DNA of 64,000 nucleotides from Kribbella solani (GTDB lineage Bacteria > Actinomycetota > Actinomycetes > Propionibacteriales > Kribbellaceae), in assembly GCF_014205295.1 (NCBI RefSeq), contig NZ_JACHNF010000001.1, positions 3,472,001 to 3,536,000 on the forward strand, in the 5' to 3' direction. Shown here one piece after another: positions 3,205 through 47,330 of the stretch. Under the pieces are notes generated by a model. That model saw only the letters and a list, made by a program, of their open reading frames with translations, was not told the DNA's origin and did no database searches. The translations under genes and the position numbers were made by a program. Every line of letters starts with the position of its first letter. The first letter of the stretch is position 1.

Positions 3205-3258
3205 TTCGCTTATGTGGAGCCCATGGTTTATCCCATGGTTTTGTGTCCTACCGCACAC

Positions 3259-17310: not shown

Positions 17311-17311
17311 T

Positions 17312-17337: not shown

Positions 17338-17550
17338 TTCTTCATGTCTGCGACGCACTCAATACGCACTCAAATGCCGCGCGCAGCCTCCAAGGTGATC
17401 CGCACACAGCCGCCTCGCCGACCCTGATCGCGGTTCGTGTGCCCATAACTGTGCGTGACATCACATCGTTTCGCATCGTCGCCGAACTCGCCGGATCAGG
17501 CCACCCACCAACGTTGAGCCTCCAACCACTACACCGGTTGGAGGCCTGAC

Positions 17551-31640: not shown

Positions 31641-34364
31641 TCAGTTACCGCCCGGGGCTTCCGACGAGGCTTCGTCATCGTGCGGGAGGAGGTACATCTG
31701 AGTCTTTCGCGCCAGGTGCAGCGGTAGCGGCAGCGCCAGCGTTGATCGCCGGTCCGGGGCCCGACGCAACTGGTGGACCAACGCGGCCCATTGCTCAGTC
31801 TCCCCTGGACCGTCGGTCGGCAATGCGGCCACAGTGATTTCCAGCAGGCCGGGGTTCGAGGCGTTGCGTCCAGTGTCGATGACCACCGCGCCGACCTTGT
31901 TGATCCGGGTCGCCAGCTTCGAGGCATCGACCGCTGCATTCTTCGCGGTGTCCGCCTTCTCCGCGGAGCTCAGGAATACTCGGTCACCGGCTTGATGATC
32001 CGCGTCGAGCCACACGCCCGTCGCAATGCCGTGATGGCCGTCTTGCTGGTCGATCGCGTACCACTGGGACGTCTCGTCCTGTTGCTTGTCGCGGACCCGC
32101 ACGTGACACAGCCGATCGCCGTACAAACCGATGTCCTGCCCCGGACCGGAGGAGAACCCCAGGAGATCCTTCTCGAGACGACCGTTTTGTAGCCACGTCC
32201 ACAGCGGGCGGGAGTTCTGCGCGTGTGTCAGGAGCAGCACCCGGCGATCGCGGAGGCTGTAGAGCATGGCTTTGACGAAGTTCTCCGCATCAGCCTGCTG
32301 TGTCGCCAGATCGGGCACCCAGGTCGTGTCAGGCTCCTCCTGGTCGAACTGCCCGGGGATCTCCGCGGACCGGGCCAGGTCCAAGAGCAACTGGCGATGT
32401 GGAATCCACCGACCGCTTCGCCGGTCGAATCCGGTGGCAAACCCGTTCTGGTCCACTTTGATCGCGATCGGAACCGTCTGGCGTTTCCCGGTTGGTCCGT
32501 CAGCCCGGCGCTTCACCATCCACAGAGCGACGTACTCGAGGTCCTCCGGGAATCCCGACAGGCTGTGGACGGGGACGACGGAAGTGCCCATCTGCCGGAA
32601 GACGTCACGCCAGGCCTGCGCGGCCCTGATTGTGACGCTCTTCGCGCCCGCGTTCTTGTACTTGCCGCTGGGTACCTGTACGAACTTGGTCAGCCGCCCG
32701 GCGTCGGCAAAGCCCAAACGTACGGCGAACTTCGGATCGGTCAGCGGCAAGAACGACTTCGCGTGGCCGATCTCCACGACAGTCGCCAGGACTCCCGACC
32801 GGCCGTCGCCGGCGCATTCCGACCGTACGGCGTTCCGGCGACACTTGATCGCTTCGCTCAATGTCGCCCGTCGCGGCTTGGGGCTGGCGAACTCGAGCGG
32901 AGAGACAATTTCGCCGGCCTCAGTGAGATGCAACTGCACCGAGAGCTCTGCTGACTGCCACGCACGGATGATCCCGTCCCCACCGGATCCCTCCAGGCCC
33001 AGCACGTCGGCCAGCTGAGCGACGAGCGCGTCGCGGGTTCGGGGATGCTGCCACCGGGCTTCGAGGATCAAGGGTTCACCTGCGAGCAATTCGCTCAGCC
33101 GGCACCGCAGCGCCGTCGAGCGTTTGGCTACTTGCTCGGCCTTGAACGCGTCCTTCCGTTCCTGTGGCCACGCGCTGTTCGCGGTCTTCGGCAGATTGAG
33201 CGGAACCGTCGAGTGAACCGTCGGCCGAAGATCCGGAACGCGACGCAGGAACGGGACCAACGCATCCACGATCCAGTCGTTCAACGGGGCCCTGTCCCGT
33301 GCCATCAAGCCGGCACCGACACCGTGCTCCCCCATGTGCGTCGAGTGCACCACAGCTGCCCGGAGACCGGCCGTCTCGTCGATCCACGTGTCCGGAGCCT
33401 GACGGAGTACCTCGGGATCAGGGAACGAACGGGCGAGGCTCAACCGGCTGAGCATTCCCTCCGGCCCTCCCTGCAGCCACCGATTGGTCTGCGTCCGGTA
33501 GTCCTTGATCATCCTGCTGACACTGAGCCGGTCCGTTGGCGGCGCGCCTCGCAACCAGGAGTCCTCGTGCGCGAGCACGACGGAGACTCCCGTGCGGTAC
33601 GGCATCGGTACAGCGCCGCCAGTTCGCCACCGCCGGACGCCGGTCCGGACGTGCAGCCGGAAGTCGTCCCGGAAGGGGATCGTCTGCACGGTCACAGAGA
33701 TGACGAAGGAGAAGAGCCATTCACCATCCTCGTCATGATGTGGCCGCGGCGGCCACGACACCAGCTCAGCTCCGCGCGCGGTCGAGGCGATACGAAAGGA
33801 CAGCTGAACCCCTTCAAACGTGTACGGCTCGAGTCTCACCACCTGTTGGGCGATGACGTCCGGGAGGAGCTGGTAGAGGCGCCGATGCGGATCTGCTGTG
33901 TCTCCGAGGGTGATGTCGCGTCCCAACAGATCGACGTCTGTCGGCTGCCACTCGAGCTCGTCCACGCCCAACGCCTCGTCTAGCGCGATCGCCGCATCGA
34001 GAAGCTCTGGATACTCCTCTCGCTGTCGTGGCGTGTGAAGGTCCCGGATCCAGGCACGGACCAGCTGCAGCAGAAGGCCGCGCGGGAACCTCTCCCGGGC
34101 GTACAGCCAGGGCTCGTCGTCGGCAACGGTCGCGCTGCGAGCCACACAGACCAGCTGCGGAGCAACGGCGCGCAGGACTTCGTTGAGTCTCTTGATCGGC
34201 ACTTGGTGGAGATTGTCCGGGTTTGTCCTGCCGATCCGGTAGAAGTCGAGCAAGTCTTTTCGCCAATGGTCCGGGAACGTCAGGCTCTGGAACTCCTGCA
34301 CAAACCGGTCGCCAGCCCGGTCCGGCTCGAACGCGGACAACCGGATCGCCGAGTATCTGGGCAT
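31641..34364 (-). CDS. pPIWI-RE family argonaute-like protein
   Basis: A 907-residue protein starting MPRYSAIRLSAFEPD. Length, the N-terminal region, the central MID-like part and the C-terminal RNase H-fold (PIWI) region match the pPIWI-RE family described by Burroughs and colleagues (2013), with conserved Arg and Glu residues. Recognisable stretches are WLRGAPPTDRLSVSRMIKDY, VHSTHMGEHGVGAGLMARDR and a C-terminal GRNASNPGLLEITVAAL. These proteins are predicted to use nucleic-acid guides against invading DNA. ATG 34364 has GGAG upstream, 14 bp after the helicase stop. It is the last gene of the minus-strand operon. Confidence 0.85.
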   Translation of the reverse strand: MPRYSAIRLSAFEPDRAGDRFVQEFQSLTFPDHWRKDLLDFYRIGRTNPDNLHQVPIKRLNEVLRAVAPQLVCVARSATVADDEPWLYARERFPRGLLLQLVRAWIRDLHTPRQREEYPELLDAAIALDEALGVDELEWQPTDVDLLGRDITLGDTADPHRRLYQLLPDVIAQQVVRLEPYTFEGVQLSFRIASTARGAELVSWPPRPHHDEDGEWLFSFVISVTVQTIPFRDDFRLHVRTGVRRWRTGGAVPMPYRTGVSVVLAHEDSWLRGAPPTDRLSVSRMIKDYRTQTNRWLQGGPEGMLSRLSLARSFPDPEVLRQAPDTWIDETAGLRAAVVHSTHMGEHGVGAGLMARDRAPLNDWIVDALVPFLRRVPDLRPTVHSTVPLNLPKTANSAWPQERKDAFKAEQVAKRSTALRCRLSELLAGEPLILEARWQHPRTRDALVAQLADVLGLEGSGGDGIIRAWQSAELSVQLHLTEAGEIVSPLEFASPKPRRATLSEAIKCRRNAVRSECAGDGRSGVLATVVEIGHAKSFLPLTDPKFAVRLGFADAGRLTKFVQVPSGKYKNAGAKSVTIRAAQAWRDVFRQMGTSVVPVHSLSGFPEDLEYVALWMVKRRADGPTGKRQTVPIAIKVDQNGFATGFDRRSGRWIPHRQLLLDLARSAEIPGQFDQEEPDTTWVPDLATQQADAENFVKAMLYSLRDRRVLLLTHAQNSRPLWTWLQNGRLEKDLLGFSSGPGQDIGLYGDRLCHVRVRDKQQDETSQWYAIDQQDGHHGIATGVWLDADHQAGDRVFLSSAEKADTAKNAAVDASKLATRINKVGAVVIDTGRNASNPGLLEITVAALPTDGPGETEQWAALVHQLRRAPDRRSTLALPLPLHLARKTQMYLLPHDDEASSEAPGGN

Positions 34365-34377
34365 AGCGTGCTCCGTA

Positions 34378-37300
34378 TCACCGAGGAAACAATTGAGACA
34401 AAGCCGAATGGAGGGGGGCATAGAGGGTGCCTACAAGATGGCGGTCGAGCGGTGACACGCCGCTGGCGTTGTCAGGATCGAAGTACGGGTCCAGAACTTC
34501 GCGCATGGACACCAGCAGACTGGAGTCCCTGGTGTCAGGCAGATCAGATCCTTCCGCGGCACGTTCGGCGAACGGTGCGTCGACGAAGACCACGCGGGCT
34601 GGTACGCCGCCACGGACGAGGCGCCCGACCACCTGCCAGATCACCACTAGCTGGTCCCACGTGAAGCTGACCCTCTCGGTCGGTGACAGCCGTCGCCAGA
34701 CCACCGGTTGACTCAACAACTGGCGCCATCGTCGCCTGGCCCCGGTACGGAACTGCCGTCCCACGACGTCCAGGTCTCCGGCAGGTTCGACCTGATCCGC
34801 GAATTCCGGGGACCGGACGCGCCGCGAGGCCCAGTCGTTGATCGCCTGGATGGCGAGGCCGATGTCGTCCGGCCGCGGGTGCGGGCGAGCGAGAAAGATG
34901 GCCGAGCCGATGGCTGCGACCCCGCCGTCGAGGATGTTGTGCCCGCGCTCGACTGCCAGCAGCGGCGCGACGAGCAGCTCGGTATTCGTGGCGGCGAACT
35001 CCGCCACGTCACCTCGGGCCAGGGACCGTACCTCCTCGCCCGGTCCCGCGATTCGATGATCCTGCTCAGCATCATCCGGTACCAGCCTGCAGACGTTGCC
35101 CTCCCAGCGCGGGATGCGAGCAAGGATCGTAGCGGCCCGGCGCGCCTCGTCGTACGATCCGGTCAGCACCAGCAGACGGCGACGACGTGGATCTTCGATG
35201 GCAGCGAGCTCCTGCTCGAAGGGACTGGGGGTCCCGTCGGCACCGCGTTTGGCCAACTGGTTGAGCATCTGCTCCAGGAAAACTGGTCGCAGGTGCGGCT
35301 TCGCGCCGGACAACTTCAACGGCCGGCCGTCCTGCTGCAGGAAGCGCGTCGTGAAGACCGACCGGCCAACCGCCTCCAACTCTTCGCTGCGCGGCGTCAG
35401 CAGCGCTCCGACCTCGGAGAGAATGTGGTACCGCGTCGATGTCCCGGCCCAGCTTGTTCCCGACATCAGCAAGACATTCGGCGCCGGCAGCCCATCTGCC
35501 AGCGTCAACTCGGGCAGCTGGAGCAGCAGTTCCCGCCCGTTGCCGGCGCAGCGGAAGAACCGAAGTTCTCCGCTTCGCGAGTCGACCTTGCTTTCGCTGT
35601 CAGGGATGAACTGGAAGCCCAGGATGTTGCCCATCGGCGACTCGGGCACGAGCGGCCGGTAGTCGTCGGGCGGGCGACGGGCGAGCACGTTGCTCGAGGC
35701 AGGAAAATCGAGCGCAGCCTCGACTGCGGGCCACAGGTCCGTGAGCAGGTCGAGACGCGTGTGCAGTGCGGACAGGATCAACGTGAACTCGAACCGCAAC
35801 GCTTGCTCCGACATTCTTTGCGTCGTGAGGTCGGCGTCCCTCCCGGCGCTTGTCAGCAGCTGAACCAGTGCTGGTTCGACGAGGCTGCGAGAGTCGCGCG
35901 TCCGAGTGGTGTGGAGCAGTCTGCGGGTCAGGCGGACCAATGCATCCACCCGTTCATCGGCGTGCTCGCGCTCACCGAGTGGGTCGTCCCGGAACTTGTC
36001 CAGCACCGAGGTGAGATTCGTTCGCGCATCCGAAGACTCCGGCTGCGGCTCTGCTCCGTTCTCCTCGTCACCAAGTGACTGACCGATTTCGTCGTCCCAC
36101 GCCGGACGATCTGCCTGCGGTGTATCCGCCGCGTCGGCTTCGTACTGCTCACCGAACCACTCGTCGAGCAGCTTGTACTGCAATGTCCATGGGTTGAAGT
36201 AGTCGGCCTCGACCCAGTTCCGCAGATCCCGATTTCGAAGCAACATGTGATAGATCCGGTCAGCAGCTGCCGCGACAGTGTGCAGTGCGGTTGTCCACCG
36301 CATCACCGTATCGTCGGACAGTTGGAGTCTCCCTTGCTCGGCCAGTCGGGCGATCTTGTGCTGCTGGATCTCGTCCAGCCACGAGTTCGGTGACCTGCCG
36401 ATGAGGACTGCGGCCGGCGCGAACATGCTGTCCAGCTGCTGCTGCACCCTGTCCACCTCGTCGACCACGATCAGATCGCTACGCCGGCAGGCGGTCTCGA
36501 GATACCGGACGCGCTCCCCGTTCTGGTGTGCAGGTACGGCGCTGTGCACGAGCCCTGCCGGAGTCGCGACCCAGATGTCCGCGCCGACGAGTTCGCGCGC
36601 GGCATGGTGCCGAGGACAGCGCTGCCAGAGCGGACAGCCGTGACGCTGACGTCCGTTCGGTCGCGGAACTGTCTGTTCCTCTGCGAGCACGGTGAGACTG
36701 CGCGGAGGGACACGGACCGCGGGATAGAGCTGCACACAGGGCGAACTCGAATAGCGCAGCGGCACCGCAGCCTCCACCCCACGCAGAGCGTCGAGCGGAC
36801 ACGCCGTACTGAGGTAGTCGAAGCCCGGGGCATCCTGATTCAGCAGTGGGCCGTCGATCGCGGCAGACCGTCGGTGCAGCCGTTGCAGGTGCTGCTCGCG
36901 GGTTGTTGCCCCGAGCACCGGCGCGGCCCGGAGCCCGAGTTCGGTGAAGAAGGCCACCAGTCGCAGGGCTTCGGCGACATCCCCGACCACCAGCGTGGTT
37001 CGCATCCCACGGCGTGCGGCCCAGACGGCCAGAATGTCTCGCAGGGTGCTCTTGCCCGCACCAACCATGCCGATGAGGTGGAGCATCCGATCCACCGTCA
37101 GGATCTTCGACTTCTCGAACTCCTCGGTGCCCCGGACGAACAGCTCGCACCGTCGTAGACGCTGGGACCACAGATCGTTCGCCGGCTGTCCCGGCGCGGC
37201 CAGCGTGTTGTCGATCCACTGTGCCGTTGCGAGCAACTCGTCCAGGTCGACCCGCAGCGGTTTCCCGCCTTCGCGTGGCCCCTCGGTGAGATCATGACCT

Positions 37301-37845
37301 CGCGCTGCACCGCCCGGCAATTCTGGTGGCAGGATCACCGAGCTCCAGCTCTTCTCCTCGCTGAAGCGCCAGGACCCTGCTGTTGCCAGCGGCAGATCCC
37401 TTGTCTGATAGGGCGGCGCCGAACTCAGCGCGTTCTCATAGGCGGCCCACCGACCGGCCGCGATCGACGGCCTGCGGGGCTCAGCGGGGCGATTCTGACC
37501 GACGATATCGTAGCCTCGCACCACCGGATCCAGGTCGACATACTCGTCGATCGCCTGCATCCAGCTGCGCGGACGCCGCAACGGCCAGAGCAGCATGCGT
37601 GCGATCCGCAAGATCCGTGCGGCATCGTCGGTCGGCACGTATCCGGCCAAGGCAGCGAACGGATAGCCACCGAACAGCACCCAGCCCGCACCGACCGGCT
37701 GATCCGGCGTCAGTCGCCGCATCAGATAGAGCCCCAGTTCCACCTCGCACAAACGGGCGGCCGTCCTCGCAGGCTCCGGCGCCTCAGACAGAGCACGAAT
37801 CAGCTCCGGCAGCAGGTCGGCTGTCCAACTGGTTCGGTTACGCAT
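34378..37845 (-). CDS. DinG-like helicase of the pPIWI-RE module (pPIWI-RE_Z)
   Basis: A 1155-residue superfamily 2 helicase. Walker A GMVGAGKST is at 259-267, DEVD at 462-465, and a C-terminal QVVGRLVRGG is motif VI. Between the two Walker motifs are C349, C370, C404 and C410 (HGCPLWQRCPRH), which could hold an iron-sulphur cluster as in DinG/XPD. This is the helicase partner of pPIWI-RE, expected to unwind target duplexes or R-loops. ATG 37845 overlaps the stop of the upstream gene by 8 bp and is preceded by GAAGGGA; the longer reading lies in that gene. Confidence 0.85.
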   Translation of the reverse strand: MRNRTSWTADLLPELIRALSEAPEPARTAARLCEVELGLYLMRRLTPDQPVGAGWVLFGGYPFAALAGYVPTDDAARILRIARMLLWPLRRPRSWMQAIDEYVDLDPVVRGYDIVGQNRPAEPRRPSIAAGRWAAYENALSSAPPYQTRDLPLATAGSWRFSEEKSWSSVILPPELPGGAARGHDLTEGPREGGKPLRVDLDELLATAQWIDNTLAAPGQPANDLWSQRLRRCELFVRGTEEFEKSKILTVDRMLHLIGMVGAGKSTLRDILAVWAARRGMRTTLVVGDVAEALRLVAFFTELGLRAAPVLGATTREQHLQRLHRRSAAIDGPLLNQDAPGFDYLSTACPLDALRGVEAAVPLRYSSSPCVQLYPAVRVPPRSLTVLAEEQTVPRPNGRQRHGCPLWQRCPRHHAARELVGADIWVATPAGLVHSAVPAHQNGERVRYLETACRRSDLIVVDEVDRVQQQLDSMFAPAAVLIGRSPNSWLDEIQQHKIARLAEQGRLQLSDDTVMRWTTALHTVAAAADRIYHMLLRNRDLRNWVEADYFNPWTLQYKLLDEWFGEQYEADAADTPQADRPAWDDEIGQSLGDEENGAEPQPESSDARTNLTSVLDKFRDDPLGEREHADERVDALVRLTRRLLHTTRTRDSRSLVEPALVQLLTSAGRDADLTTQRMSEQALRFEFTLILSALHTRLDLLTDLWPAVEAALDFPASSNVLARRPPDDYRPLVPESPMGNILGFQFIPDSESKVDSRSGELRFFRCAGNGRELLLQLPELTLADGLPAPNVLLMSGTSWAGTSTRYHILSEVGALLTPRSEELEAVGRSVFTTRFLQQDGRPLKLSGAKPHLRPVFLEQMLNQLAKRGADGTPSPFEQELAAIEDPRRRRLLVLTGSYDEARRAATILARIPRWEGNVCRLVPDDAEQDHRIAGPGEEVRSLARGDVAEFAATNTELLVAPLLAVERGHNILDGGVAAIGSAIFLARPHPRPDDIGLAIQAINDWASRRVRSPEFADQVEPAGDLDVVGRQFRTGARRRWRQLLSQPVVWRRLSPTERVSFTWDQLVVIWQVVGRLVRGGVPARVVFVDAPFAERAAEGSDLPDTRDSSLLVSMREVLDPYFDPDNASGVSPLDRHLVGTLYAPLHSALSQLFPR

Positions 37846-38941
37846 GGGTTCCCTTCCAGACCGCCTTCGCCTCACGAACGAATGCCCGATGTCCCCAGAT
37901 CTCCAGATCCGGCGTTGCTCGTAGCGAACGCCGCGCGATCCGCACGTAGGACCGCCGGGCTTTGAGGCGATGATCCGGCACCACAACGAACGCGCGGTCG
38001 TACGGCGGGTCGCTGTCGAGGCTCCTCGTGTTCCGGCCGAGGAGCGCCGGATTCGCCCAGTCTTTGACGTCCACCGCCCAGACCTGGCCGTCAGGCATGG
38101 TGATGCGCAGGTCGTAGGCGTCGTAGTTCGGCCACAATTCCGGCTCCATGACGGCCAGGTCAGCAGCGAGCGCCAACTCGGCCCGCCCCGGCATGGTCAC
38201 GAAGAGGCGCAGTGGCCGGGTCAGCAGCCGCACTCCACCGCCCTCATCCACTGGATAGGTGGTTCCGGGACGAATGGTGCCAGCAACACGGCATCGCGGA
38301 TTTTCGCACCACCACAAGCCGTCGTTGGTTGGTACCAGCAACAACTCGCAGCATGAGCAGGCCGCAAAACTCGAGTTGCGCTGCAATCCGTCAGGTGCCG
38401 GAAGGTAGACCCTCTCCAGCAACCCATCGACCGGAGTCAGCTCGGGGTGCAAAGCGATCTCCGACAGCTTCGCCTCCGAGAGCACCGGATGCTCGATCAG
38501 GAGCCGCCGGAAGGCGACGTACGACGCCGGGCGCCCGGCTGATCTGCAACTGTCCAATGCACTGTGGATCAGCGCCCGGTCGATCTGCTCGACGGCAGCG
38601 TCGGGCGCATCAACGGCCCACTCGTAACAGAGATCGGTCGGCACCCATGCTTCGGGATCGATCAGTAGGTCGTCCGGATGTGCCAGGTCAGCCGGGAGAT
38701 CAAGCGGCCAGTCGACGACCGGCCGCTCACGGCACCACGCGAGTAGCTCAGGAACCGAAAGAGGCGGCTCCGCACCCCGCAACAGACATGCGAGCACGGT
38801 CCGATCCAGAGCGCGCTGCACCTCGGGCGGGTAGGGCAGCCTGAACAGGCCCGGGTCCTCGATCTGGTCGAGATCGATGACGGCGCCAGCGACGGTACGC
38901 AAGAGGGTGACACCTTCATGCGGCGCTTCGATGACATTCAC
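37838..38941 (-). CDS. Restriction endonuclease-fold partner of pPIWI-RE (pPIWI-RE_Y)
   Basis: A 367-residue protein. C195, C197/C198, C212 and C217 form a zinc ribbon, and the C-terminal domain has D277 (AYDLRI) with DVK at 291-293, the PD-(D/E)XK active-site pattern with Asp in place of Glu. This is the nuclease of the three-gene pPIWI-RE module. The start is GTG 38941, overlapping the upstream nuclease stop by 4 bases (GTGA), with GGAG 9 bases upstream. Both ends are coupled to neighbours, so all four genes form one operon. Confidence 0.82.
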   Translation of the reverse strand: MNVIEAPHEGVTLLRTVAGAVIDLDQIEDPGLFRLPYPPEVQRALDRTVLACLLRGAEPPLSVPELLAWCRERPVVDWPLDLPADLAHPDDLLIDPEAWVPTDLCYEWAVDAPDAAVEQIDRALIHSALDSCRSAGRPASYVAFRRLLIEHPVLSEAKLSEIALHPELTPVDGLLERVYLPAPDGLQRNSSFAACSCCELLLVPTNDGLWWCENPRCRVAGTIRPGTTYPVDEGGGVRLLTRPLRLFVTMPGRAELALAADLAVMEPELWPNYDAYDLRITMPDGQVWAVDVKDWANPALLGRNTRSLDSDPPYDRAFVVVPDHRLKARRSYVRIARRSLRATPDLEIWGHRAFVREAKAVWKGTHA

Positions 38942-40542
38942 TGTTCTTGCTCCGCTCTCGGGAGCTGCCGTTCTGGGCACCATCGGGAGTACTCGCATCG
39001 GTCGCAGTGATCACCCGGTCGGGCTTGCGCAGTCGTGTCCGCGTGCCAGGGACCGGCGTACTGCCGGACGATTGCCCGGGCACGACCGATGACATCGGGA
39101 CGCGTCGGCTGGATCAGTTCGAGGTCAGAGCCACCCGGTCGCAAGATCTCGAGCTCCACGCGCGACCTTCGCGGTTCGTCACCCAGCAGACCTTCGGCGA
39201 GAATCAGTACGGCGAGAGCAACCTGGGGGTAGGTCTCCATCAGGTCAGCGCCGACCCGCGGAGATCGATAGGTGGTCGTCTTAACCTCGCGCCACACCCA
39301 GCCGCCGCGATCCTGGTAGAGGAGATCAGGTGTTGCGATGACGACGGCGTTCGCCCGCGGGTCGTAGACGGTGAGCTGACGCTCGGAACGCACGCTGTCC
39401 GGATCCGAATACCGGAGTGGACAGACAGCCGCGTGCATCGCGATCATCGCCGCGCCGCGTTCGGCCTCGCGGCCGGACACCGACCATCTGCCTCCGATCC
39501 AGTCCGACGGATCCGGAGGAACATCCCCGGTGGTGCACTGGACTCTGGGCGTCCGTTCGTGAAGTTGTTCGATCCAGGCATGAACCGCGCGCCCGCGGAC
39601 GACAGCTCCGCTGTTCTCGATCGACTTGTCCGACGGCAACCGAAGCTGCCGGAAGTGCGCCTTCGCGGGGCACAGACTGTGCAGGCGGAGATCGGTGACC
39701 GAGACGGTTCGCCGGGCGCGGTTGGGCTCGTCGACACCGAGGATCCCAGGACTCTTTGTCAGCGCCCCGCACTCACCGGTCAGCGAACAGTCCTTGCAGC
39801 TGGCTCCCGGCCGGCGTTCTGTGGCCTCCACCGACCGCCGCAGCGCCGGAGCCGCGTACTGCTCGTACTGCACCCGGGCATCCTCTGGCGTCCCGTCGAA
39901 GAGGACCTCAGGCTCACCACCGAGGCAGCCGAATTCGACCACCCGGACCCTCCGCGGCTGGGGAAAGGCCTGCACATCATGCGCTTGTCCGTACCGCGGT
40001 CGGTCGGCACGCCCTCCGAACGCGACGACGTACGCCGCCATGGCGACCTGCGCGAGATCACGCACGCGCCGACCGGCCGCACCGAAGGTCAGCAGCCGCA
40101 ACTCCCGCACGCTTGCGTCGAGCGAGGCGTACCCCCGCCCCCAGGCCCGCAACTCGTAGAGATCGTCAGACCTGACCTGGCGGACCCACAACTTAGGGTC
40201 AGGAACCAACGCAGGGGTGACCGGTGAACTCGAGGCGGCGGAGAGGTAGTTGGCGACAGCCTCCTCGACGAAGCGTCGATGCCCGACATGCACAGGTCTG
40301 CTCGACTTCTCGCGGGCCTCCCCGAACTCGATCCGGTCCAGTTCGGCCATCACCGGCCCCAGCGCGAAGCCTTCGAGGTCGCGCGCGGACGAGACCCTTC
40401 TCGGCAAGCGAAGTGCCGGGCGCGCCTTGACCGCGCACAACAGCGGGCAGTCTTCAGCGCTCTCCTCGGCCGCTCCTGCGAAGACCCTGATCAGCCGCGC
40501 CGATCCGGTCGCGCCCGCCGGTATCGGCCAGTCCGTAGCCAT
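38938..40542 (-). CDS. AddB/Cas4-like PD-(D/E)XK nuclease with predicted Fe-S cluster and duplicated half
   Basis: A 534-residue protein, first gene of the pPIWI-RE operon. The C-terminal half is a RecB/Cas4-type nuclease: C291 (SLCPAKAHF), H321, D406 (ATPDLLY), E419 and K421 (REVKTTT), then C513, C516 and C522. One Cys before and three after the core is the AddB/Cas4 4Fe-4S arrangement. The N-terminal half has a weaker copy (about 120-260), with RELRLL and C249, C252, C258. It should be a DNA exonuclease or end-processing enzyme. No Cas1, Cas2 or CRISPR array is present. Confidence 0.8.
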   Translation of the reverse strand: MATDWPIPAGATGSARLIRVFAGAAEESAEDCPLLCAVKARPALRLPRRVSSARDLEGFALGPVMAELDRIEFGEAREKSSRPVHVGHRRFVEEAVANYLSAASSSPVTPALVPDPKLWVRQVRSDDLYELRAWGRGYASLDASVRELRLLTFGAAGRRVRDLAQVAMAAYVVAFGGRADRPRYGQAHDVQAFPQPRRVRVVEFGCLGGEPEVLFDGTPEDARVQYEQYAAPALRRSVEATERRPGASCKDCSLTGECGALTKSPGILGVDEPNRARRTVSVTDLRLHSLCPAKAHFRQLRLPSDKSIENSGAVVRGRAVHAWIEQLHERTPRVQCTTGDVPPDPSDWIGGRWSVSGREAERGAAMIAMHAAVCPLRYSDPDSVRSERQLTVYDPRANAVVIATPDLLYQDRGGWVWREVKTTTYRSPRVGADLMETYPQVALAVLILAEGLLGDEPRRSRVELEILRPGGSDLELIQPTRPDVIGRARAIVRQYAGPWHADTTAQARPGDHCDRCEYSRWCPERQLPRAEQEQ

Positions 40543-40549
40543 GCACTCA

Positions 40550-40609
40550 GTGAAGCATTCTCTGTGAACAATGTCCACACGAACCATCTGATTGATATGC
40601 TTCACAGAG
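40550..40609. promoter_or_regulatory. Bidirectional promoter region of the defence island with inverted repeats
   Basis: The 89 bp between the two divergent operon starts contains CTCTGTGAACAAT (40560-40572) on plus and its near-copy CTCTGTGAAGCAT on minus (40597-40609), 24 bp apart. A further GTGAAGCAT lies at 40550-40558. The symmetry suggests one operator controlling both operons. No regulator gene is encoded within the island. Confidence 0.55.
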
Positions 40610-40631
40610 GTGCGGACGGGAAGGGCAGACC

Positions 40632-41906
40632 ATGTCGTTGGAAGTGCTGGGCGGCAACTACGCGCTGCGACGAGTCCTCGGGTCCGGAGCCGTCGCGACC
40701 GTTTACCTCGCGCACGACATCACGCTCGAGCGATCAGTCGCGATCAAACGGGTCAGCCCGGAGAACGCGTCGCCGCAGCACGAGCAGCGGCTGCGGCGGG
40801 AGGCACACGCGATGGCGGCGCTGAGCGGATGCCGTCAGGTTCCGCAGATCCATGCGCTTGGCGACGCGGACGGCCGTATGTACCTGGTGCTGGAGTACAT
40901 CGACGGTTCGACCGTCAAGGAGTACATAAGCCGGCATCACCCAGTGGCAATCGACGCCGCAGTCTCGATCATCACCCAGGTCGCTACCGCGTTGGCAGCG
41001 GCTCACGCACAAGACCTCATCCACCGCGACATCAAACCCGCGAATCTCATGATCGCGGTCGACGGGACCCTGAAGGTCCTCGACTTCGGCGTCGTCGCGG
41101 TGTCCGATCCGGAGGCCGTACGGCTGACCGAGACCGGACACACGCCCGGCACGACCGCCTATATGGCTCCCGAGATCGCTCATTCCGGCATGGCGGGGCC
41201 GGAGGCAGACCTGTACTCGCTGGGTTGCGTTCTCTTCGAACTCCTGACCGGCCAGCTCGTCTTCAACGCACCGACACCCCAGGCGATGATGCAGAAGCAC
41301 ATCGAAACAGTCCCGCGGTCTGTACACCAACTTCGCGCCGATGTGCCGAACTGGCTCGGCGACCTGACCGCCCAACTGCTGGCCAAGCTTCCGGCACACC
41401 GGCCGGCACAGGCCCTTGACGTGATCGACATTCTCGAGCCGCACCTCCCCGTGTACGGCTCGGGCGCTGATCGGCTATGCGGCAGTCCGGATCCGACGAG
41501 GCCGTTCCGTGAGCCGTTCCGGCCAATCGAGCAACAGGTCGACCCGCCGTTGCAGGTGCGACGCGCCCGACGACGGCAGACACCCATGCGGCGAACCGAT
41601 CTCGTTGACGCGCTTGCGGAAGCCAACGCCCTGACCAGCGCCGGCGATCTGCCCGGAGCCCGGCAGGTGATCGACCAGTGCCTTCGCTGGGCCAGCGGTC
41701 AGCTCGGTAGCCTCGACCCGCAGGTCCTGTCGTTACGCCTGAGCAGGGCGCACCTGCTACTCGTGATGGATGCCGCTGCAGACGCGTTGATCAGCTATCA
41801 GGAGCTTCGGCCGGACCTCGTTCAGCGATTCGGGCCACACAGCTCGGAGGTCCAGGCCGCCGACGACGGCATCGCCGCCTGCTTAGACGTGGAGGACGGA
41901 TCGTGA
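40632..41906 (+). CDS. Serine/threonine protein kinase, cytoplasmic, with TPR-like tail
   Basis: A 424-residue protein. The kinase domain spans about 10-270: glycine loop GSGAVATVY (18-25), K39, HRDIKPANLM (131-140), DFG (151-153), APE (179-181). All catalytic residues are present. There is no membrane segment, unlike PknB-type receptors. The last 100 residues form helical repeats (ALTSAGDLPGARQVIDQCL) like TPRs, suited to protein binding. GAAGGG precedes ATG 40632. It overlaps the methyltransferase start by 4 bases. It could sense infection or regulate the downstream enzymes by phosphorylation. Confidence 0.88.
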   Translation: MSLEVLGGNYALRRVLGSGAVATVYLAHDITLERSVAIKRVSPENASPQHEQRLRREAHAMAALSGCRQVPQIHALGDADGRMYLVLEYIDGSTVKEYISRHHPVAIDAAVSIITQVATALAAAHAQDLIHRDIKPANLMIAVDGTLKVLDFGVVAVSDPEAVRLTETGHTPGTTAYMAPEIAHSGMAGPEADLYSLGCVLFELLTGQLVFNAPTPQAMMQKHIETVPRSVHQLRADVPNWLGDLTAQLLAKLPAHRPAQALDVIDILEPHLPVYGSGADRLCGSPDPTRPFREPFRPIEQQVDPPLQVRRARRRQTPMRRTDLVDALAEANALTSAGDLPGARQVIDQCLRWASGQLGSLDPQVLSLRLSRAHLLLVMDAAADALISYQELRPDLVQRFGPHSSEVQAADDGIAACLDVEDGS

Positions 41907-43984
41907 ACGAGAACACCCCGACTACCGTGACGGCGACGGGAATCGCGCGGATCGCCGGGGTCGGGCGAGCTGCGGTCAGTAACTGGCGACGCCGGTACGC
42001 CGACTTTCCACACCCGGTGGCCGGAACCCCCGGGAACCCTGTCTTCGATCTAGACGAGGTCAGCGTCTGGCTCGACGAGCAGGGCAAGGGGTCGAACGTC
42101 CCGGCCTTGGAGCTGGTGTGGCGCAGGATCGAAGCCAGAGGATCTGGACACGTCGCCGAGTCCCTTGCACAGATCGGGACGGTTCTGCTTGTGGACACCG
42201 ACGACTGGCCAGAGGCACCGCTCAGTGCCGACGCGCTGCGCGAGCAACTGTCGACGACGCAAGGACCCGACGCAACATTGTTGTCGGAAGGCCTGCCGGA
42301 CAGTTGGACGTCTACCGACGAGGACCTCCTCAAGTCGGTAGCGTCGCTGACCTCAGAGTATTCAAACGCCGATCTCTTCGAGCAACTGCACGAGCGGTAC
42401 GTCTCTTCTCGGTCGTCGATGAGCGTCGAAGAGACAACCGACGCAACCGCTGAGCTGATGCTCACCCTAGCTACCCCCGGAGCCGGGCCTACGGTGTTCG
42501 ACTTTGCCTGCGGCACCGGAACCCTTCTCAGAACCGCCTGCGCACGCGCGATGGCGAGCGGCCACGCCGTGCGAGTGTTCGGGCAGGACGCCAGCAAGGC
42601 CCACGCCAGGATTGCCTTCGCTCGGTTGGCATTGCTTGCCCAGCAAACCAACAGCCCGATCGAACTGAGGATCCGGGCAGGCGACTCGCTGACTGCTGAC
42701 GCCGATCCCGGGCTGACGGTCGATACGGTTGTGTGCAACCCGCCGTTCGGTATCCAGGACTGGGGGCACGAGCTCCTCGCAATCGACGAGCGCTGGGAGT
42801 ACGGCGGCCTTCCGCCGCGCACCGAACCCGAACTCGCCTGGGTGCAGCACGCACTGGCCCACCTGAAGCCCGGCGGCCGCGCTGCTCTTCTCATGCCTCC
42901 AGCGGCGGCGAGCAGATCCGCGGGCCGTCAGATTCGGACCGAACTGCTCCGCCGCGGCAGGCTACGAGCTGTCCTCGCCCTTCCCGCCGGAGCCGTCCGC
43001 GGCACGAGCGTCGGACCGCACCTGTGGCTCCTCGAGCACCCCACGGCCGAGCCCGACAACCACCAGGTCCTGCTTGCCGACCTCACGAACGAGGAACATC
43101 TGCAGACGGATCAGCGAAGCACAGCGGCTGCTGCATGGGAATCCGGATCGAGCAGCGGAATCTCGCACGATGTAGCGGACTGGTTCTCGGTTCTCGATCT
43201 CCTCGAGGGCCAGGTCGACCTGACTCCGGGGCGCAGACTCCGCCGACCGCCACCCGCACGAGCGGACAGCGAGTCCGTCATCAAAACTCTTGATGAGCTG
43301 CGGTTCCAGACGGCGAATGTCACCGCTCTGCTCCCGGAAAGCCTACGGCCATCAGCGGCAAGCGCCGACAATCTGCAACTCATGTCCGTGGGCACGTTGC
43401 TACGTCATCGTGTGGTGGCGCTGCATCGCGGCCGTGCACCGCAGGTCGACCTGACGAGCGGACCGGCCATCGTATCGCAGGATGTGAGCAGGGGCAAAGG
43501 TCCAAGCGGGCGAGCGTCGGCCGATGGACTCCTCATCGCTACGAACGACATCCTGATTCCCGCGATCGCCGAAGGAGTCGTCGCCCGGGTGGCAACACCT
43601 GACCAGATCGGAGCGCTCCTCGGATCGGGCGTTCATCTGCTCAGGGTCGACCCCGCGCAGCTCGATCCCTGGTACGTGGCCGGCATGCTCGCAAGTCGGA
43701 GCAACGCCCATCAGGCAGGAATGGTCCTGACGCCGACCCGAGGGACGACTCGGGTCGACGTGAAACGACTACAGATCCCTTTGCTGCCACTCCAGCGCCA
43801 GCACGAGTACGGCACCGCGTTCCGGCAATTGACAGCCCTGGAGAGCCAACTTTCCAGGACCCAGGCGGCCGGCGCCGAGGCACTCCGCGCTCTGGCTGAC
43901 GGCCTGACCGAGCTTTCATTGGATCCGCAAGACCTGAGTCGATTGAGTCACGATCCAGATCACAAGGAGAACGGATGCATCTGA
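41903..43984 (+). CDS. N6-adenine DNA methyltransferase with N-terminal HTH and C-terminal specificity-like region
   Basis: A 693-residue protein. Residues 1-60 form a helix-turn-helix (ARIAGVGRAAVSNWRRRY, then FDLDEVSVWLDE). The HsdM-type methyltransferase core has motif I VFDFACGTG (198-206) and motif IV NPPFG (279-283). The last 200 residues resemble type I specificity regions (ILIPAIAEGVVARVAT, LLPLQRQHEYGTAFRQL). No separate HsdR or HsdS gene is near. It starts with GTG in a 4-base overlap with the kinase gene and overlaps the next gene by 10 bp. It may mark host DNA for this system. Confidence 0.85.
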   Translation: MNENTPTTVTATGIARIAGVGRAAVSNWRRRYADFPHPVAGTPGNPVFDLDEVSVWLDEQGKGSNVPALELVWRRIEARGSGHVAESLAQIGTVLLVDTDDWPEAPLSADALREQLSTTQGPDATLLSEGLPDSWTSTDEDLLKSVASLTSEYSNADLFEQLHERYVSSRSSMSVEETTDATAELMLTLATPGAGPTVFDFACGTGTLLRTACARAMASGHAVRVFGQDASKAHARIAFARLALLAQQTNSPIELRIRAGDSLTADADPGLTVDTVVCNPPFGIQDWGHELLAIDERWEYGGLPPRTEPELAWVQHALAHLKPGGRAALLMPPAAASRSAGRQIRTELLRRGRLRAVLALPAGAVRGTSVGPHLWLLEHPTAEPDNHQVLLADLTNEEHLQTDQRSTAAAAWESGSSSGISHDVADWFSVLDLLEGQVDLTPGRRLRRPPPARADSESVIKTLDELRFQTANVTALLPESLRPSAASADNLQLMSVGTLLRHRVVALHRGRAPQVDLTSGPAIVSQDVSRGKGPSGRASADGLLIATNDILIPAIAEGVVARVATPDQIGALLGSGVHLLRVDPAQLDPWYVAGMLASRSNAHQAGMVLTPTRGTTRVDVKRLQIPLLPLQRQHEYGTAFRQLTALESQLSRTQAAGAEALRALADGLTELSLDPQDLSRLSHDPDHKENGCI

Positions 43985-45840
43985 GCAGACTTCGCGTCCA
44001 GGGCCTACGAGCCACCGCGCTCGGGGACCTGGAAGTCAACTTTCCTGGACGGTTCAGCGTGCTGATCGGCGCGAACGGCGCTGGCAAGACAACCGTGAGC
44101 GAAGCTCTCTATCTCAGCCACCACAAGACGTTTCCCAACGTGCAGCCCCCTTCGGCATCGACCCTGGGACCGCCGGAACGCACAGTTGAGGTCGACTACT
44201 CTTTCGCGTCCGAGGGATTAGTCGAGGGACCGCTGGGGGCAAGCCTCCAGGCGCAGAGCGGCCGCAACGCCCCTGGAACTCTGGCCGCCAGCTGGTCCCG
44301 AACTCTTCGCCGCAATCTGGGGAGAGTACGAGCCGAGACAATCGTTGGGGATCAGGCCGAGGACGCATTCCTGCTGGTGTACCTCCCGGCGTCACGCAAT
44401 CCACTCGACGAGCTGGCCCGACGGGAGGCAAGGATCCTCGTCGAGCTACTGCGAGCGCAGCAGCAGAACAGAGGACGAGGTCGCGACCTGACATCGCTCC
44501 GCTCCCGTGCTTCCGTCTTACTGGAGCAACTTGCAACGGACGGACTGCTGACGGGCCTGGAGGATCGAGTCGGCGAGCATCTCCGAGCACTTTCGGCCGG
44601 TGTGAGCAGGAACTGGCCCTACATCCGTGGTCAGGTGGTCGACGACCGGTATCTTGCGCGCGTACTGGAGCTCATGCTTGCCACCATCGAGGGCCGCGAG
44701 CACGCGTTGCCCCTGGAGGCTGTCGGACTCGGCTACGTCAATCTGCTGCACATCGCCGTGACGCTCGCGGCCATCCCGGACTCCCGTCCGGCAGAATCAG
44801 CCGGGGATCAACAGGAGGAACCGGAGCAGTCGACAGAACTCGAGAACGCCGAGGAACGACTCCGCCAGGCCCAGGCCGAGAGCGAAAGCCGTGAGGACTC
44901 GTTCTTCCCGGACGGCCCGTTCCACGTCACTTTGGTGATCGAGGAGCCGGAGGCGCATCTCCACCCACAGCTCCAGCATTCGTTCACCCGCTACCTCCGC
45001 CGTGAGGTCCAGCGCCGGCCGGAACTTCAGGTCATCCTCTCGACGCACGCCACCGACGTGATCACCTCATGCGATCCCGAGGAGATTGTCGTCGTACGAC
45101 GCGATCGATCCGGCCGGAATCTCTCGCGGACCATCGCCGCCTTGCCGATCACAGACCGAGAGGACGTGTTGCGCAAGACCCGGCTGCACCTGGATGCCAG
45201 TCGCTCGGCGGCGCTCTTTGCTGAGCGACTGCTGCTCGTCGAAGGGGTGACCGAGGCAGCGGTCATCCGTGAGTTCGGCTGGATCTGGGCTGGCGACGAC
45301 CCGGACAAACAGGCCTTCGTCGACGCTTTGAGCATCGTCGCGATGGGGACGAAGGTCGGCGCATGGGCGGTCCGGCTGCTCGCCACCAGGAACCACGAGC
45401 TCTGCAACCGGATCGCGGTGCTGCGCGACACCGATCTCGCGTTCGACCAGACGCCTAGCCAGCCGGCCTGGGCCGATGAGCATGACCCCGACGTCGTGCT
45501 CATCGCGCAGAGCCACCCAACGCTCGAGCCCGAGTTGACCGACGGCAACGAGGCGTTGGTCGCCGATGCACTGTCGGAGCTGGACGGACTGGACGTGCCG
45601 GCCCAGGTGACGGCGGAATCGGTGCATGAGCTCTTCCGCAGCGCGCGTAAGCCCAAGGATGCTCCTGCGACGCCTGCAGGACCTGCTGCGAGGCGCAAGG
45701 GTGAATTCGCACTCGCGCTAGCCGGGCAACTGAGAGATGCACGCACCACCGGAACAGCGGTCAGGGTGCCCGAGCCGATCGAGAAAGTGCTGGACTTCCT
45801 CTACATGACGGCGGACTCAGACATCACGGTCGGGTCATGA
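43975..45840 (+). CDS. OLD-family ATPase-TOPRIM nuclease, GajA-like
   Basis: A 621-residue protein. ABC-type ATPase: Walker A GANGAGKT (32-39), Walker B VIEEPEAHLHP (321-331), switch STHATD (356-361), split by a helical insertion. TOPRIM: VEGVTE (422-427) and RDTD (484-487), with an acidic tail. This is the layout of class 2 OLD nucleases including Gabija GajA, a sequence-specific DNA nicking enzyme activated by nucleotide depletion. GajA is about 580 residues, so the size is close. It overlaps both neighbours, and the following gene is a UvrD-like helicase as in Gabija. Confidence 0.85.
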   Translation: MHLSRLRVQGLRATALGDLEVNFPGRFSVLIGANGAGKTTVSEALYLSHHKTFPNVQPPSASTLGPPERTVEVDYSFASEGLVEGPLGASLQAQSGRNAPGTLAASWSRTLRRNLGRVRAETIVGDQAEDAFLLVYLPASRNPLDELARREARILVELLRAQQQNRGRGRDLTSLRSRASVLLEQLATDGLLTGLEDRVGEHLRALSAGVSRNWPYIRGQVVDDRYLARVLELMLATIEGREHALPLEAVGLGYVNLLHIAVTLAAIPDSRPAESAGDQQEEPEQSTELENAEERLRQAQAESESREDSFFPDGPFHVTLVIEEPEAHLHPQLQHSFTRYLRREVQRRPELQVILSTHATDVITSCDPEEIVVVRRDRSGRNLSRTIAALPITDREDVLRKTRLHLDASRSAALFAERLLLVEGVTEAAVIREFGWIWAGDDPDKQAFVDALSIVAMGTKVGAWAVRLLATRNHELCNRIAVLRDTDLAFDQTPSQPAWADEHDPDVVLIAQSHPTLEPELTDGNEALVADALSELDGLDVPAQVTAESVHELFRSARKPKDAPATPAGPAARRKGEFALALAGQLRDARTTGTAVRVPEPIEKVLDFLYMTADSDITVGS

Positions 45841-47330
45841 CGCAAACCGCTGGGACCTCGCTGACTGTCGAGCAGCGGCTCGCTGCTGGCGTTCTGGAAT
45901 CGCGCCTCTTCATCGAGGCGGGTCCTGGCACGGGTAAGACAACCGTCGCAGCTCAGCGATTCGGTGTCCACCGCTTCGATCCGAGGGCACGTACTGACAC
46001 ACGGGCTGTGGTTGCAGTCAGCTTCACCAGGGCGGCGACGCTCACACTGGCACGTCGCGTCAAGCGATTCTGGGGATCCCGCGCACTCACGTGGCCACAT
46101 CGGATCGTGACCCTCGACACGATCATGTCCGATCTGGTCGGCGACCTGTTGCACGCCGGGCTCCTCCGCTGGCCGAACGGCCACAAGGATCTCCAGGTCG
46201 AGGACAGTTGGGCATCCTTCAGCGGCACCACGCGGAACAGGACGGCGTACCGGCTGACCATCGAGCACGGACAGGTCGTCATCCGACGCTATTTCACGCA
46301 GTCGCACCACTACACAGTCCCCGCGACGGTGAGCCTGCCTCTCTTGGACCAGGGAATCTGTACGCATGACGACGTTCGTGACGTCCTGAAGCAGGCCATC
46401 GCGGACCCTACGGTCGCCGCCCATGTGCGTGCCCGTCTGGCCACGAGCACTCGGGCGCTCATCGTCGACGAAGTCTTCGACGCCAACGACCTGGACATCG
46501 CGATCATCGAATTCGCTGTCGAGGCAGGGATCGCGGTCACCCTGGTCGGAGATCCGTGGCAGGCTCTGTATGTCTTCCGCGGCGCCCGGCCAGACGTCGT
46601 GCCCCTCCTACTCGACCGCCACGAGTTTCGCAGGCTGGCCCTCACCGAGTCGTTCCGTTGGCGCGAACCATCGCAACGACAACTGGCCGAGGACCTCCGC
46701 GCCGGGCGTGGAGTCACTCTCCCGATCAGCGATGACACCAGTGCGGTCGACGTCGTCCTGGCCCTGCAGTGGAAGCCGATGTGGGAGCTCGGTCCAGAAG
46801 TCCTTCCGCTGGCATTCCACGGTTTCAAGGGTGGCCAGGAGGAAGCAGCCGCGACCCTGCTGCTGAACCACGCGACCAGGAACATCTTCAGCCTGGACGC
46901 GACATACCTCAACGACAGCCTGACGGCACTGGCGATCTCTGACCGCGACCTCCCCCGGCGCATCGAACCCGCACTGCAGGCGATCATCGAGACACTCCGG
47001 CCGGGAACCAGGGCAAGTATCCGTGCCGCGTACGTGCAACTCAGCGAGCTTGTCGCAGCCATCTCTCCAAGACGTCTACGCAAACCGCACGCCAGTCACA
47101 CAGGACGACTTGCGCTTATCCAGGAGCGACTTGGCTTCGCAGGCCGCCCGGTCCCGGGTCTCACGACGCACCAGGCCAAGGGCAGGGAATGGGACACAGT
47201 CGGAATCAGATTGTCCCCGGATGAGCAACGGCGCCTCGCCAACGGCCTGAGCGTCGAGCGCGACACCGATCGGCAACTGTATGTCGCGTGCACTCGCGCT
47301 TGCCTACGCACCGCTGAGATCTCCCCCTGA
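45837..47330 (+). CDS. UvrD/PcrA-like superfamily 1 helicase, GajB-like
   Basis: A 497-residue protein, the same size as GajB. Motifs: Q motif LTVEQRLAAG, Walker A AGPGTGKTT (28-36), Walker B VDEVFDAND (210-218) in place of the usual DEFQD, motif III GDPWQALYVFRGA (238-250), motif IV ESFRW, motif V THQAKGREWDTVG, motif VI YVACTRA near the end. It starts at the ATGA overlap with the OLD gene. GajB senses nucleic-acid ends and relieves or supports GajA; a similar pairing is inferred here. Confidence 0.83.
   Translation: MTQTAGTSLTVEQRLAAGVLESRLFIEAGPGTGKTTVAAQRFGVHRFDPRARTDTRAVVAVSFTRAATLTLARRVKRFWGSRALTWPHRIVTLDTIMSDLVGDLLHAGLLRWPNGHKDLQVEDSWASFSGTTRNRTAYRLTIEHGQVVIRRYFTQSHHYTVPATVSLPLLDQGICTHDDVRDVLKQAIADPTVAAHVRARLATSTRALIVDEVFDANDLDIAIIEFAVEAGIAVTLVGDPWQALYVFRGARPDVVPLLLDRHEFRRLALTESFRWREPSQRQLAEDLRAGRGVTLPISDDTSAVDVVLALQWKPMWELGPEVLPLAFHGFKGGQEEAAATLLLNHATRNIFSLDATYLNDSLTALAISDRDLPRRIEPALQAIIETLRPGTRASIRAAYVQLSELVAAISPRRLRKPHASHTGRLALIQERLGFAGRPVPGLTTHQAKGREWDTVGIRLSPDEQRRLANGLSVERDTDRQLYVACTRACLRTAEISP

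Follow-up and report, generated by a model that had tools for sequence, protein, structure and literature searches.

The pPIWI-RE three-gene system was described by Burroughs, Iyer and Aravind in 2013 as a predicted restriction system, in which a REase with domain Y, a DinG-type helicase with a Cys-rich region and the pPIWI-RE protein are encoded in strict order by close or overlapping genes (PMC3702460); the parts of that paper covered here describe pPIWI-RE contexts as stand-alone or triad only, and note no associated methylase. PsPIWI-RE of Pseudomonas stutzeri, encoded beside a DinG and a nuclease, cleaves with D525/D610 (PMC10991935). In the literature covered here, partly in excerpt, we met no experiment in which a pPIWI-RE system was tested for defence against phages or plasmids; PMC7641849 was dropped as a PIWI-RE lead, as its "PIWI-RE" text matches mean "Piwi-related". 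Gabija, in the sections drawn on here, consists of an OLD-type ATPase-TOPRIM protein with a Glu and a DxD motif, followed by a UvrD-like helicase, with overlapping genes (PMC10781630). In Pgl/BREX type 2 (excerpts of PMC4365076) and, judging by its NCBIfam and PADLOC models, in MADS, a Ser/Thr kinase is paired with an N6-adenine methyltransferase; according to excerpts of PMC12839542, BREX can be accompanied by TOPRIM/OLD nucleases that act as backup effectors.

The locus described here lies in a window of 64,000 nucleotides from Kribbella solani and consists of two divergent operons, in which adjoining genes overlap or abut. The minus-strand operon resembles the 2013 triad and the PsPIWI-RE neighbourhood; compared with the triad, the window adds a fourth gene, for an AddB/Cas4-like nuclease, ahead of it, and a divergent kinase and methyltransferase, which are followed by a Gabija-like pair. 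The ORF list together with Pfam and PADLOC bears out the eight genes with the strands, order and tight operons given in an earlier note on this DNA, and the residues it had named are present (kinase K39, methyltransferase NPPF, the GajA-like TOPRIM site and DVK of the pPIWI_RE_Y protein). Gene content, recurrence, orientation and residues can be read directly from the sequences. On balance, we favour the view that the locus is a composite: a pPIWI-RE core with a divergent control arm and an added, independent Gabija-like cassette, on a probable mobile element.

The pPIWI-RE module

The first gene of the minus-strand operon encodes the AddB/Cas4-like PD-(D/E)XK nuclease (38938..40605; PDDEXK_1, 6e-21, Pfam), with conserved cysteines; its D427, E440, K442 and C312/C534/C537/C543 are kept in 84/84 other rows. 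If the nuclease starts at ATG 40542, as is likely, the intergenic region between both operons (40543..40631) measures 89 bp, as the earlier note had it; the longest nuclease ORF, however, begins at GTG 40605. No consensus promoter or terminator was found in this region. Next comes a 386-residue protein (37838..38998), here called REY, with pPIWI_RE_Y (1.7e-52), a zinc ribbon and a REase domain (9.8e-33, both Pfam), in which the DVK residues are D310-V-K312. It is followed by a DinG-like SF2 helicase with pPIWI_RE_Z (1.2e-43, Pfam; 34378..37986, an ORF of 1202 aa with a likely start near 37845), which has a Walker A GAGKS at 309-313, DEVD at 509-512 and conserved Cys 396/417/451/457, and by the pPIWI-RE protein itself (31641..34421, 926 aa). 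The strict order REase-Y, DinG-type helicase, pPIWI-RE of the triad is thus kept, with genes close or overlapping. All four proteins also match PADLOC Ppr models (1e-98 to 1e-248) within the one operon: PprPDDEXK at 7.2e-125, PprRE at 4.1e-98, PprDinG at 4.6e-248 and PprPIWI at 1.1e-212. From their shared name we infer that the four models form one set, the comparison being with models and not with PADLOC system rules; among the matches listed, there is no kinase or methyltransferase model of that name.

The pPIWI-RE protein has pPIWI_RE_X (3.9e-100), MID_pPIWI_RE (8.9e-21) and RNase H-like PIWI (RNaseH_pPIWI_RE, 1e-62) domains, all above the Pfam cut-off, and its structure model has an Argonaute fold by Foldseek. 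In contrast to PsPIWI-RE, positions 630-636 of modelled RNase H strand 1 are without an acidic residue in the clade of the window protein (81/81 relatives), and because the core of this strand lacks one, the window protein is probably a non-slicer. Glu or Asp is found at the ends of the strand in some relatives, at 637 in 17/81 and at 629 in 2, and these may use a shifted catalytic residue. The reading of D657 as a catalytic Asp that only the window has was rejected, as the model places it just past strand 2, outside strand 1. Of the PIWI-domain Arg and Glu that give the family its name, E861 is kept; R772, present in 81/81 others, is Cys in the window and may or may not be the Arg in question.

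The lineage of the window pPIWI protein joins clades with both kinase and methyltransferase at 79/84.7 only, an unstarred node, and a tree in which it joins the kinase-less clade instead is also acceptable (p-AU 0.31). The FastTree analysis of DinG covers 82/86 loci; L145 was removed by hand for its broken frames, and L106, L114 and L149 have matches shorter than 900 residues. A careful DinG tree was made with 31 of these rows and two triad-type outgroups. An apparently close relation between the window and L145 was discarded, the high identities coming from short pieces of this frame-broken locus.

The divergent kinase and its partners

The first gene of the plus-strand operon encodes a Ser/Thr protein kinase of 424 aa (40632..41906; Pkinase, 3.5e-49, Pfam) with intact catalytic residues (K39, HRD131 and DFG151) and a TPR-like C-terminal region that gives a weak match only. 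To place it, we used a scan of 80 loci seeded with the Cas4/AddB-like nuclease and blind to the kinase, with counts taken from L082-L161 only; L138 and L049/L050 are one contig, and the contigs of L095 and L055 have equal lengths. The tblastn searches for kinase, methyltransferase and Gabija genes used few queries, with thresholds of E 1e-5 and 50 bits; diverged members may escape them. A divergent Ser/Thr kinase lies within 1 kb of the Cas4-like nuclease in 47/79 loci and within 4 kb in 52/79, these loci being non-independent because they are related to one another; just past the other end of the module, a kinase was found in 1/73 loci. The same searches gave no upstream kinase on the module's own strand in 80 loci, and no kinase match within 4 kb in 27/79. 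The base rate in the own genome is 16 kinase genes in 7.85 Mb. In a smaller class draw (394 genomes), a kinase adjoins 5/7 four-gene modules and 0/5 modules without the Cas4-like nuclease. Our searches of open-licence PMC papers gave no report of a kinase beside a pPIWI-RE module, and the kinase partner is the new part relative to the known four-gene module.

Across the 37 module-linked rows compared (window, types B, C and D, and other), the kinase Lys, the catalytic Asp and the DxG Asp are kept, and all but one retain the full HRD. In the kinase tree, for which 10 type-B loci were picked by hand and the own genome supplied 12 of its 15 other kinases, 9/10 type-B and 15/17 type-C rows fall into one starred clade (96); kinases linked to a module or a methyltransferase form a group (86, unstarred) that excludes those 12 from the own genome. 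The companion of the kinase is an AfsR-like STAND regulator or, in the window, an HTH-methyltransferase-TRD protein. The window kinase and methyltransferase branch outside both the type C and the type D clades, and may have been recruited separately.

The methyltransferase protein (41903..43984, plus strand, 693 aa) combines an HTH, an N6-adenine methyltransferase (N6_Mtase, 1.8e-34, Pfam; NPPF279 intact) and a TRD-like region of HsdS type, and its model matches type I M/M-S and type IIG enzymes by Foldseek. As in type I restriction-modification, an HsdM-like methyltransferase is thus joined to an HsdS-type TRD; no HsdR subunit was found by Pfam among 28 proteins scanned (8 of the island and 20 flanking). 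Kinase and methyltransferase are both present in 18/75 loci, in two arrangements, so the earlier observation of this pair beside pPIWI-RE is borne out as recurrent. The idea that methylation marks self, also put forward in the earlier note, lacks general support, because motif IV, though intact in the window, is degenerate in most pPIWI- or kinase-linked relatives (10/15 type-C and 4/4 distinct type-D, with a match of at least 400 residues required). In type C, conservation is highest in the HTH (67%), compared with 55% in the core and 42% in the C-terminus. Self-marking by hypervariable TRDs was considered too and set aside: the C-terminus is just moderately more variable than the core (0.42/0.55 in type C, 0.59/0.71 in type D, 0.72/0.77 in kinase-linked proteins without pPIWI), a difference that speaks clearly neither for the idea nor against it.

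One explanation for such neighbours is plain juxtaposition in a defence island, with the pPIWI-RE module, the kinase-methyltransferase pair and the Gabija pair independent and sharing only an element and a divergent promoter region. The upstream slot does hold other genes in relatives: a divergent Wadjet JetABC in L096, LeoABC-like genes on the module's strand in L113, a PDC-M23B/HamB-like helicase in L149 and a four-gene operon with an SF1 helicase in 14/80 loci. Several of the kinase-less loci have other defence genes upstream, which makes the neighbours exchangeable to some degree; pairs of kinase and methyltransferase are also found with no pPIWI module close by, as are all seven other close GajAB copies fetched (7/7). 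Nonetheless, a single gene type, for a catalytically intact kinase, is placed divergently time and again, in 52/79 loci against 1/73 at the other end, and most type-B and type-C kinases share one starred clade despite differing pPIWI modules, so that we regard mere juxtaposition as rather unlikely.

The Gabija-like pair and its carrier

The last two plus-strand genes encode a GajA-like OLD-family ATPase-TOPRIM nuclease (43975..45840, 621 aa; GajA profile, 3.5e-44, PADLOC) and, directly downstream with a 4-bp overlap as expected for Gabija, a GajB-like UvrD/SF1 helicase (45837..47330, 497 aa; GajB profile, 2.8e-36, PADLOC). The former has E423-G424 and D485xD487, with E423, D485 and D487 invariant in 7 rows. 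The pair is nonetheless distant from Gabija in sequence (PDB GajA, E 6e-4; GajB, 8e-5), and its helicase box is DEVFD where that of Gabija is given as DEXQD in the part of PMC10781630 covered.

The earlier note had proposed that this pair and the other six genes may act as a single system, in which the methyltransferase marks self, the kinase signals and two nuclease-helicase sets attack. The overlapping genes, the short divergent region and the intact methyltransferase motif of the window fit such a system. So does a second genome of the genus: G000 and G035, the two nuclease-positive genomes among 97 relatives, both have GajAB beside the module, and their GajA proteins group as sisters (89/91) and, at 81% identity over 450 columns, are nearest to each other; the adjacency of GajA and pPIWI has therefore persisted or recurred in Kribbella. 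A standalone GajAB in L173 also has a two-ORF relative of the window methyltransferase ~0.9 kb away. Against this, a search for co-occurrence of the families by tblastn gave no GajA or GajB match beside the module in any of the other 80 loci, and no pPIWI module was found in the stretches fetched around the seven other close GajAB copies, a set of close matches that does not extend to the weak GajA matches G018:C4 and G044. Of 139 plasmid records, a minority was inspected. Moreover, the two GajAB-adjacent pPIWI modules, of the window and G035, belong to different lineages (sister grouping, p-AU 1.8e-5), and in G035 GajA has three frame changes and GajB one, whereas all four genes of the pPIWI module are open. 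We thus consider a single eight-gene system very improbable; from these sequences, the Gabija-like pair looks like a separable, added defence cassette. The least probable reading takes the plus-strand operon for a stand-alone system akin to MADS or Pgl/BREX type 2 (kinase, N6 methyltransferase, ATPase and nuclease/helicase) that does not depend on the pPIWI genes: kinase-methyltransferase pairs do exist with no pPIWI module close by, and the kinase, methyltransferase and ATPase match MAD6, MAD2 and MAD3 weakly, but at 162/460, 32/720 and 33/420 bits these are far below the NCBIfam cut-offs, the 28 scanned proteins have no PglZ domain (Pfam), and the order kinase-methyltransferase-GajA-GajB is absent from every other locus fetched.

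Absent from the earlier picture, the island sits between repeats of a tRNA-Lys end 86 kb apart. The 3' end of tRNA-Lys (3136..3205, plus strand) is the first of three direct repeats; the second (17270..17339, plus strand) is the probable left boundary of the island-bearing element, and the third lies at genome position 3575094 (103094 in the window frame). A phage-type integrase (17551..18981, plus strand) adjoins the left-boundary repeat, and a TrwC-type conjugative relaxase/helicase is encoded at 49280..52963 (plus strand). The carrier is a probable mobile element at tRNA-Lys.

A proposed kinase-gated pPIWI-RE system

Returning to the composite with its control arm, we tentatively suggest, as a possibility somewhat short of even, that actinobacterial pPIWI-RE systems are kinase-gated: the divergent kinase would, via a DNA-binding partner, activate a PIWI restriction complex that binds a guide but does not slice. 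Depending on the lineage, this partner would be an AfsR-like STAND regulator (in one) or a pseudo-methyltransferase with an HTH (in others). What concerns activity, guides, phosphorylation or phage resistance is inferred here. In the mechanism that we favour for the locus itself, the kinase would respond to infection, or to the state of the complex, and gate the module by phosphorylation; the HTH-methyltransferase protein, as a regulator or sensor, would recognise specific DNA, and the window copy may methylate too. The pPIWI protein would bind a guide or an RNA:DNA hybrid without slicing, the DinG-like helicase would open DNA or track along it, and the REY and Fe-S-type PD-(D/E)XK nucleases would cut it; Gabija would work separately, as a backup.

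The recurrent kinase partner provides a concrete, testable control input for pPIWI-RE systems. We suggest that the kinase, often with a methyltransferase-like or AfsR-like protein, is a member of the system, and that Gabija, Wadjet, Leo and others are passengers, a division that helps experiments to include the appropriate genes. Should most of the methyltransferase-like proteins be readers without activity, the customary view that a methyltransferase marks self wherever it stands in a defence locus would have to be taken with caution. If kinase gating is true, phospho-signalling would be built into an Argonaute-family immune system, and most lineages would have made a DNA reader out of a methyltransferase.

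Gene content of the island and fold of its pPIWI protein

The eight open reading frames described in the earlier note (31641-47330) are confirmed, and Pfam and PADLOC match every one of them. The minus-strand operon is transcribed in the order AddB/Cas4-like nuclease, REY (pPIWI_RE_Y with a REase domain), DinG-like helicase, pPIWI. PADLOC models match all four proteins (PprPDDEXK 7.2e-125, PprRE 4.1e-98, PprDinG 4.6e-248, PprPIWI 1.1e-212), which we take as one catalogued set; REY-DinG-pPIWI is the same triad as the pPIWI-RE triad of Burroughs et al. 2013, as laid out in that paper (PMC3702460). The plus-strand operon consists of a Ser/Thr kinase, an HTH-N6-methyltransferase-TRD protein, a GajA-like and a GajB-like protein, and the gap between the two operons is 89 bp if the nuclease starts at 40542.

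The model of the pPIWI protein (34421-31641; pLDDT 81.8, pTM 0.84) matches Argonautes (4kre, E 3e-13; TM-score 0.40-0.46). Its first RNase H strand is modelled at residues 629-637, and at 630-636 neither the window protein nor any of 81 relatives carries an acidic residue; at the ends of the strand, Glu or Asp occurs at position 637 in 17/81 relatives and at 629 in 2/81. PsPIWI-RE, according to PMC10991935, needs its catalytic residues D525 and D610, whereas the clade studied here has no acidic residue at 630-636. Given the strand order of the model, this suggests that the clade probably binds guides without slicing. Two substitutions occur only in the window protein: Cys for Arg at 772 and Lys for Gln at 579, with Arg and Gln present in all 81 relatives.

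Recurrence of a kinase beside pPIWI modules

A scan of a species-genome collection with an alignment of seven Cas4-like nuclease copies, which is blind to the kinase, yielded 121 loci with 10-kb flanks, of which 80 were kept. All four module proteins were matched in 77; in the other three (L114, L147 and L149) the pPIWI match is absent, L114 and L147 being short loci. Upstream sequence, i.e. at the nuclease end, reaches 1.5 kb or more in 79 loci; in 47 of these a divergent kinase match lies no more than 1 kb from that of the nuclease, and in 52 no more than 4 kb, counts that do not represent 79 independent events since the loci are related to one another. Within 1.5 kb past the pPIWI end a kinase was found in 1/73 loci (L100), and across the 80-locus scan no upstream kinase match lay on the module's own strand. 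From the 16 kinase genes encoded in the 7.85 Mb of the window's genome, we estimate chance adjacency at below 1%. In a separate draw of 394 class genomes, some of which recur among the 80 loci, pPIWI_RE_Y was present in 12; in the loci fetched from it, the kinase is adjacent in 5/7 four-gene modules vs 0/5 modules without the Cas4-like nuclease.

The upstream neighbours fall into several arrangements. Type B (32 loci) combines the kinase with a convergent Trans_reg_C-BTAD-NB-ARC-TPR protein, the AfsR architecture, its domains being read from one member (example locus L104:6087-9047); such a kinase with a convergent AfsR-like protein resembles the AfsK-AfsR pair. Type C (13 loci) has a divergent kinase and a methyltransferase convergent with it, and type D (5 loci) a methyltransferase followed by a kinase, both divergent from the module; in 2 loci the kinase has no partner. 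Where the upstream stretch is 5 kb or longer (75 loci), kinase and methyltransferase are both present in 18. Type A (14 loci) has an SF1-helicase four-gene operon and no kinase, and the remaining 14 loci include a lone methyltransferase (L083, L086), Wadjet JetABC (L096), LeoABC-like genes (L113) and a PDC-M23B/HamB-like helicase (L149). The type-A operon, e.g. L082:4918-9888, is divergent from kinase-less modules and encodes, besides the helicase, proteins of ~500, ~370 and ~300 aa for which confident Pfam or PADLOC matches are absent; it is a candidate unnamed system.

In DinG trees, types B, C, D and the kinase-less clade are separate. The careful DinG tree groups the window with C and D (79/84.7, unstarred), and the AU test does not reject a position with the kinase-less clade (p-AU 0.31). 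In the kinase tree, a single starred clade (96) takes in 9/10 type-B and 15/17 type-C rows. The kinase of the window groups (86, unstarred) with others linked to a module or a methyltransferase, its nearest neighbour being that of type-B locus L122 (83); the 12 own-genome kinases included fall elsewhere. The window methyltransferase sits on a long branch that falls in neither the C nor the D clade. From these placements, the kinase association is either old or recurrent, and the window's kinase and methyltransferase may have an origin other than the C or D pair.

The methyltransferase as partner of the kinase

The methyltransferase model (mean pLDDT 82.9, pTM 0.62) consists of an HTH, the methyltransferase, a TRD and a long C-terminal helix, and Foldseek matches it to type I M and M-S and type IIG enzymes. 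The canonical form of motif IV is [NDS]PP[FYW]. The window copy has NPPF, as do 5/15 type-C partner proteins; the other ten have SPPT (4), NPPS, NPPA, VPPS, NVPT, DLPA and YPPT, and none of the 4 distinct type-D copies is canonical (NPPS, DLPS, NLPF x2). The motif is HPPF in 10/10 kinase-linked copies with no pPIWI module nearby (L066-L069, L071-L073, L078-L080) and NPPF in 5/5 copies for which no kinase was matched (L062-L065, L070). This tidy rule has exceptions: kinase-less L075 and L077 have HPPF, kinase-less L074 and L076 SPPF, and kinase-linked L178 DPPF. The ten HPPF loci come from Streptomyces-type group genomes, where the methyltransferase lies ~0.8 kb from a related kinase.

In type C the HTH is the best-conserved part (67% vs 55% for the core and 42% for the C-terminus), and the kinase residues are conserved almost throughout. 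We read this combination as a putatively active kinase next to a protein that binds DNA but in many copies would have lost the ability to methylate; the window copy may methylate. Type-C and type-D proteins in which motif IV is SPPT or NLPF are predicted to be inactive.

The Gabija-like pair, the probable mobile setting and the proposed composite locus

The earlier note had proposed that all eight genes may form a single defence system. A kinase beside the pPIWI module is recurrent; membership of the Gabija pair is not supported, with matches in 0/80 pPIWI loci. The window, where kinase, methyltransferase, GajA and GajB are all transcribed away from the module, represents another arrangement of single occurrence, so that the eight families in this order were seen once, in the window itself. 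The pair satisfies Gabija sequence criteria and is distant from solved GajA/GajB. The box of Gabija GajB is described as DEXQD, whereas the window helicase (45837-47330) and 6/7 relatives (L171, L173-L177) have DExFD or DExYD; L172 has no pattern match. In these seven other close copies (L171-L177; two on Streptomyces plasmids), no pPIWI module was matched in stretches of 14-22 kb. At L173:4317-8130, two ORFs akin to the HTH-methyltransferase are divergent from a standalone GajAB, starting ~0.9 kb away.

The exception is G035, a genome from the window's genus: its GajA-GajB pair precedes a pPIWI module by ~0.3 kb, both being encoded on one strand, and the 27 kb fetched gave no match to a kinase or methyltransferase. 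Its module belongs to the kinase-less clade, grouping with the window being rejected (p-AU 1.8e-5). Its GajA is fragmented, the frame changing three times, and the frame of its GajB changes once, possibly through sequencing error; all four pPIWI genes are open. The two pPIWI-adjacent GajA, that of G035 represented by its largest piece, are sisters (89/91). This counts against separability, since the pairing may have been kept while one side was replaced.

The 70-base end of a tRNA-Lys gene (3136-3205) is repeated at 17270-17339 with 91% identity, and again at genome position 3575094-3575161 (103094 in the window frame; 91% over 68 bases), which suggests two elements of ~14 kb and ~86 kb integrated in tandem at one tRNA-Lys gene. 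Integrases lie beside the first and second left boundaries (3259-4845 and 17551-18981), both with an HTH_31 domain right ahead of the C-terminal catalytic match. The island is within the second interval, whose gene annotation covers the portion inside the window, as is a TrwC relaxase (from 49280). Close to the relaxase is an RHS-repeat protein of 2252 aa (54673-61431), possibly a polymorphic toxin borne by the same element.

The locus is best read as a composite, probably mobile, of a kinase-linked type of pPIWI-RE module and a separable Gabija cassette. What is new here is the linkage of a kinase to the pPIWI-RE module, the mechanism of which is putative.
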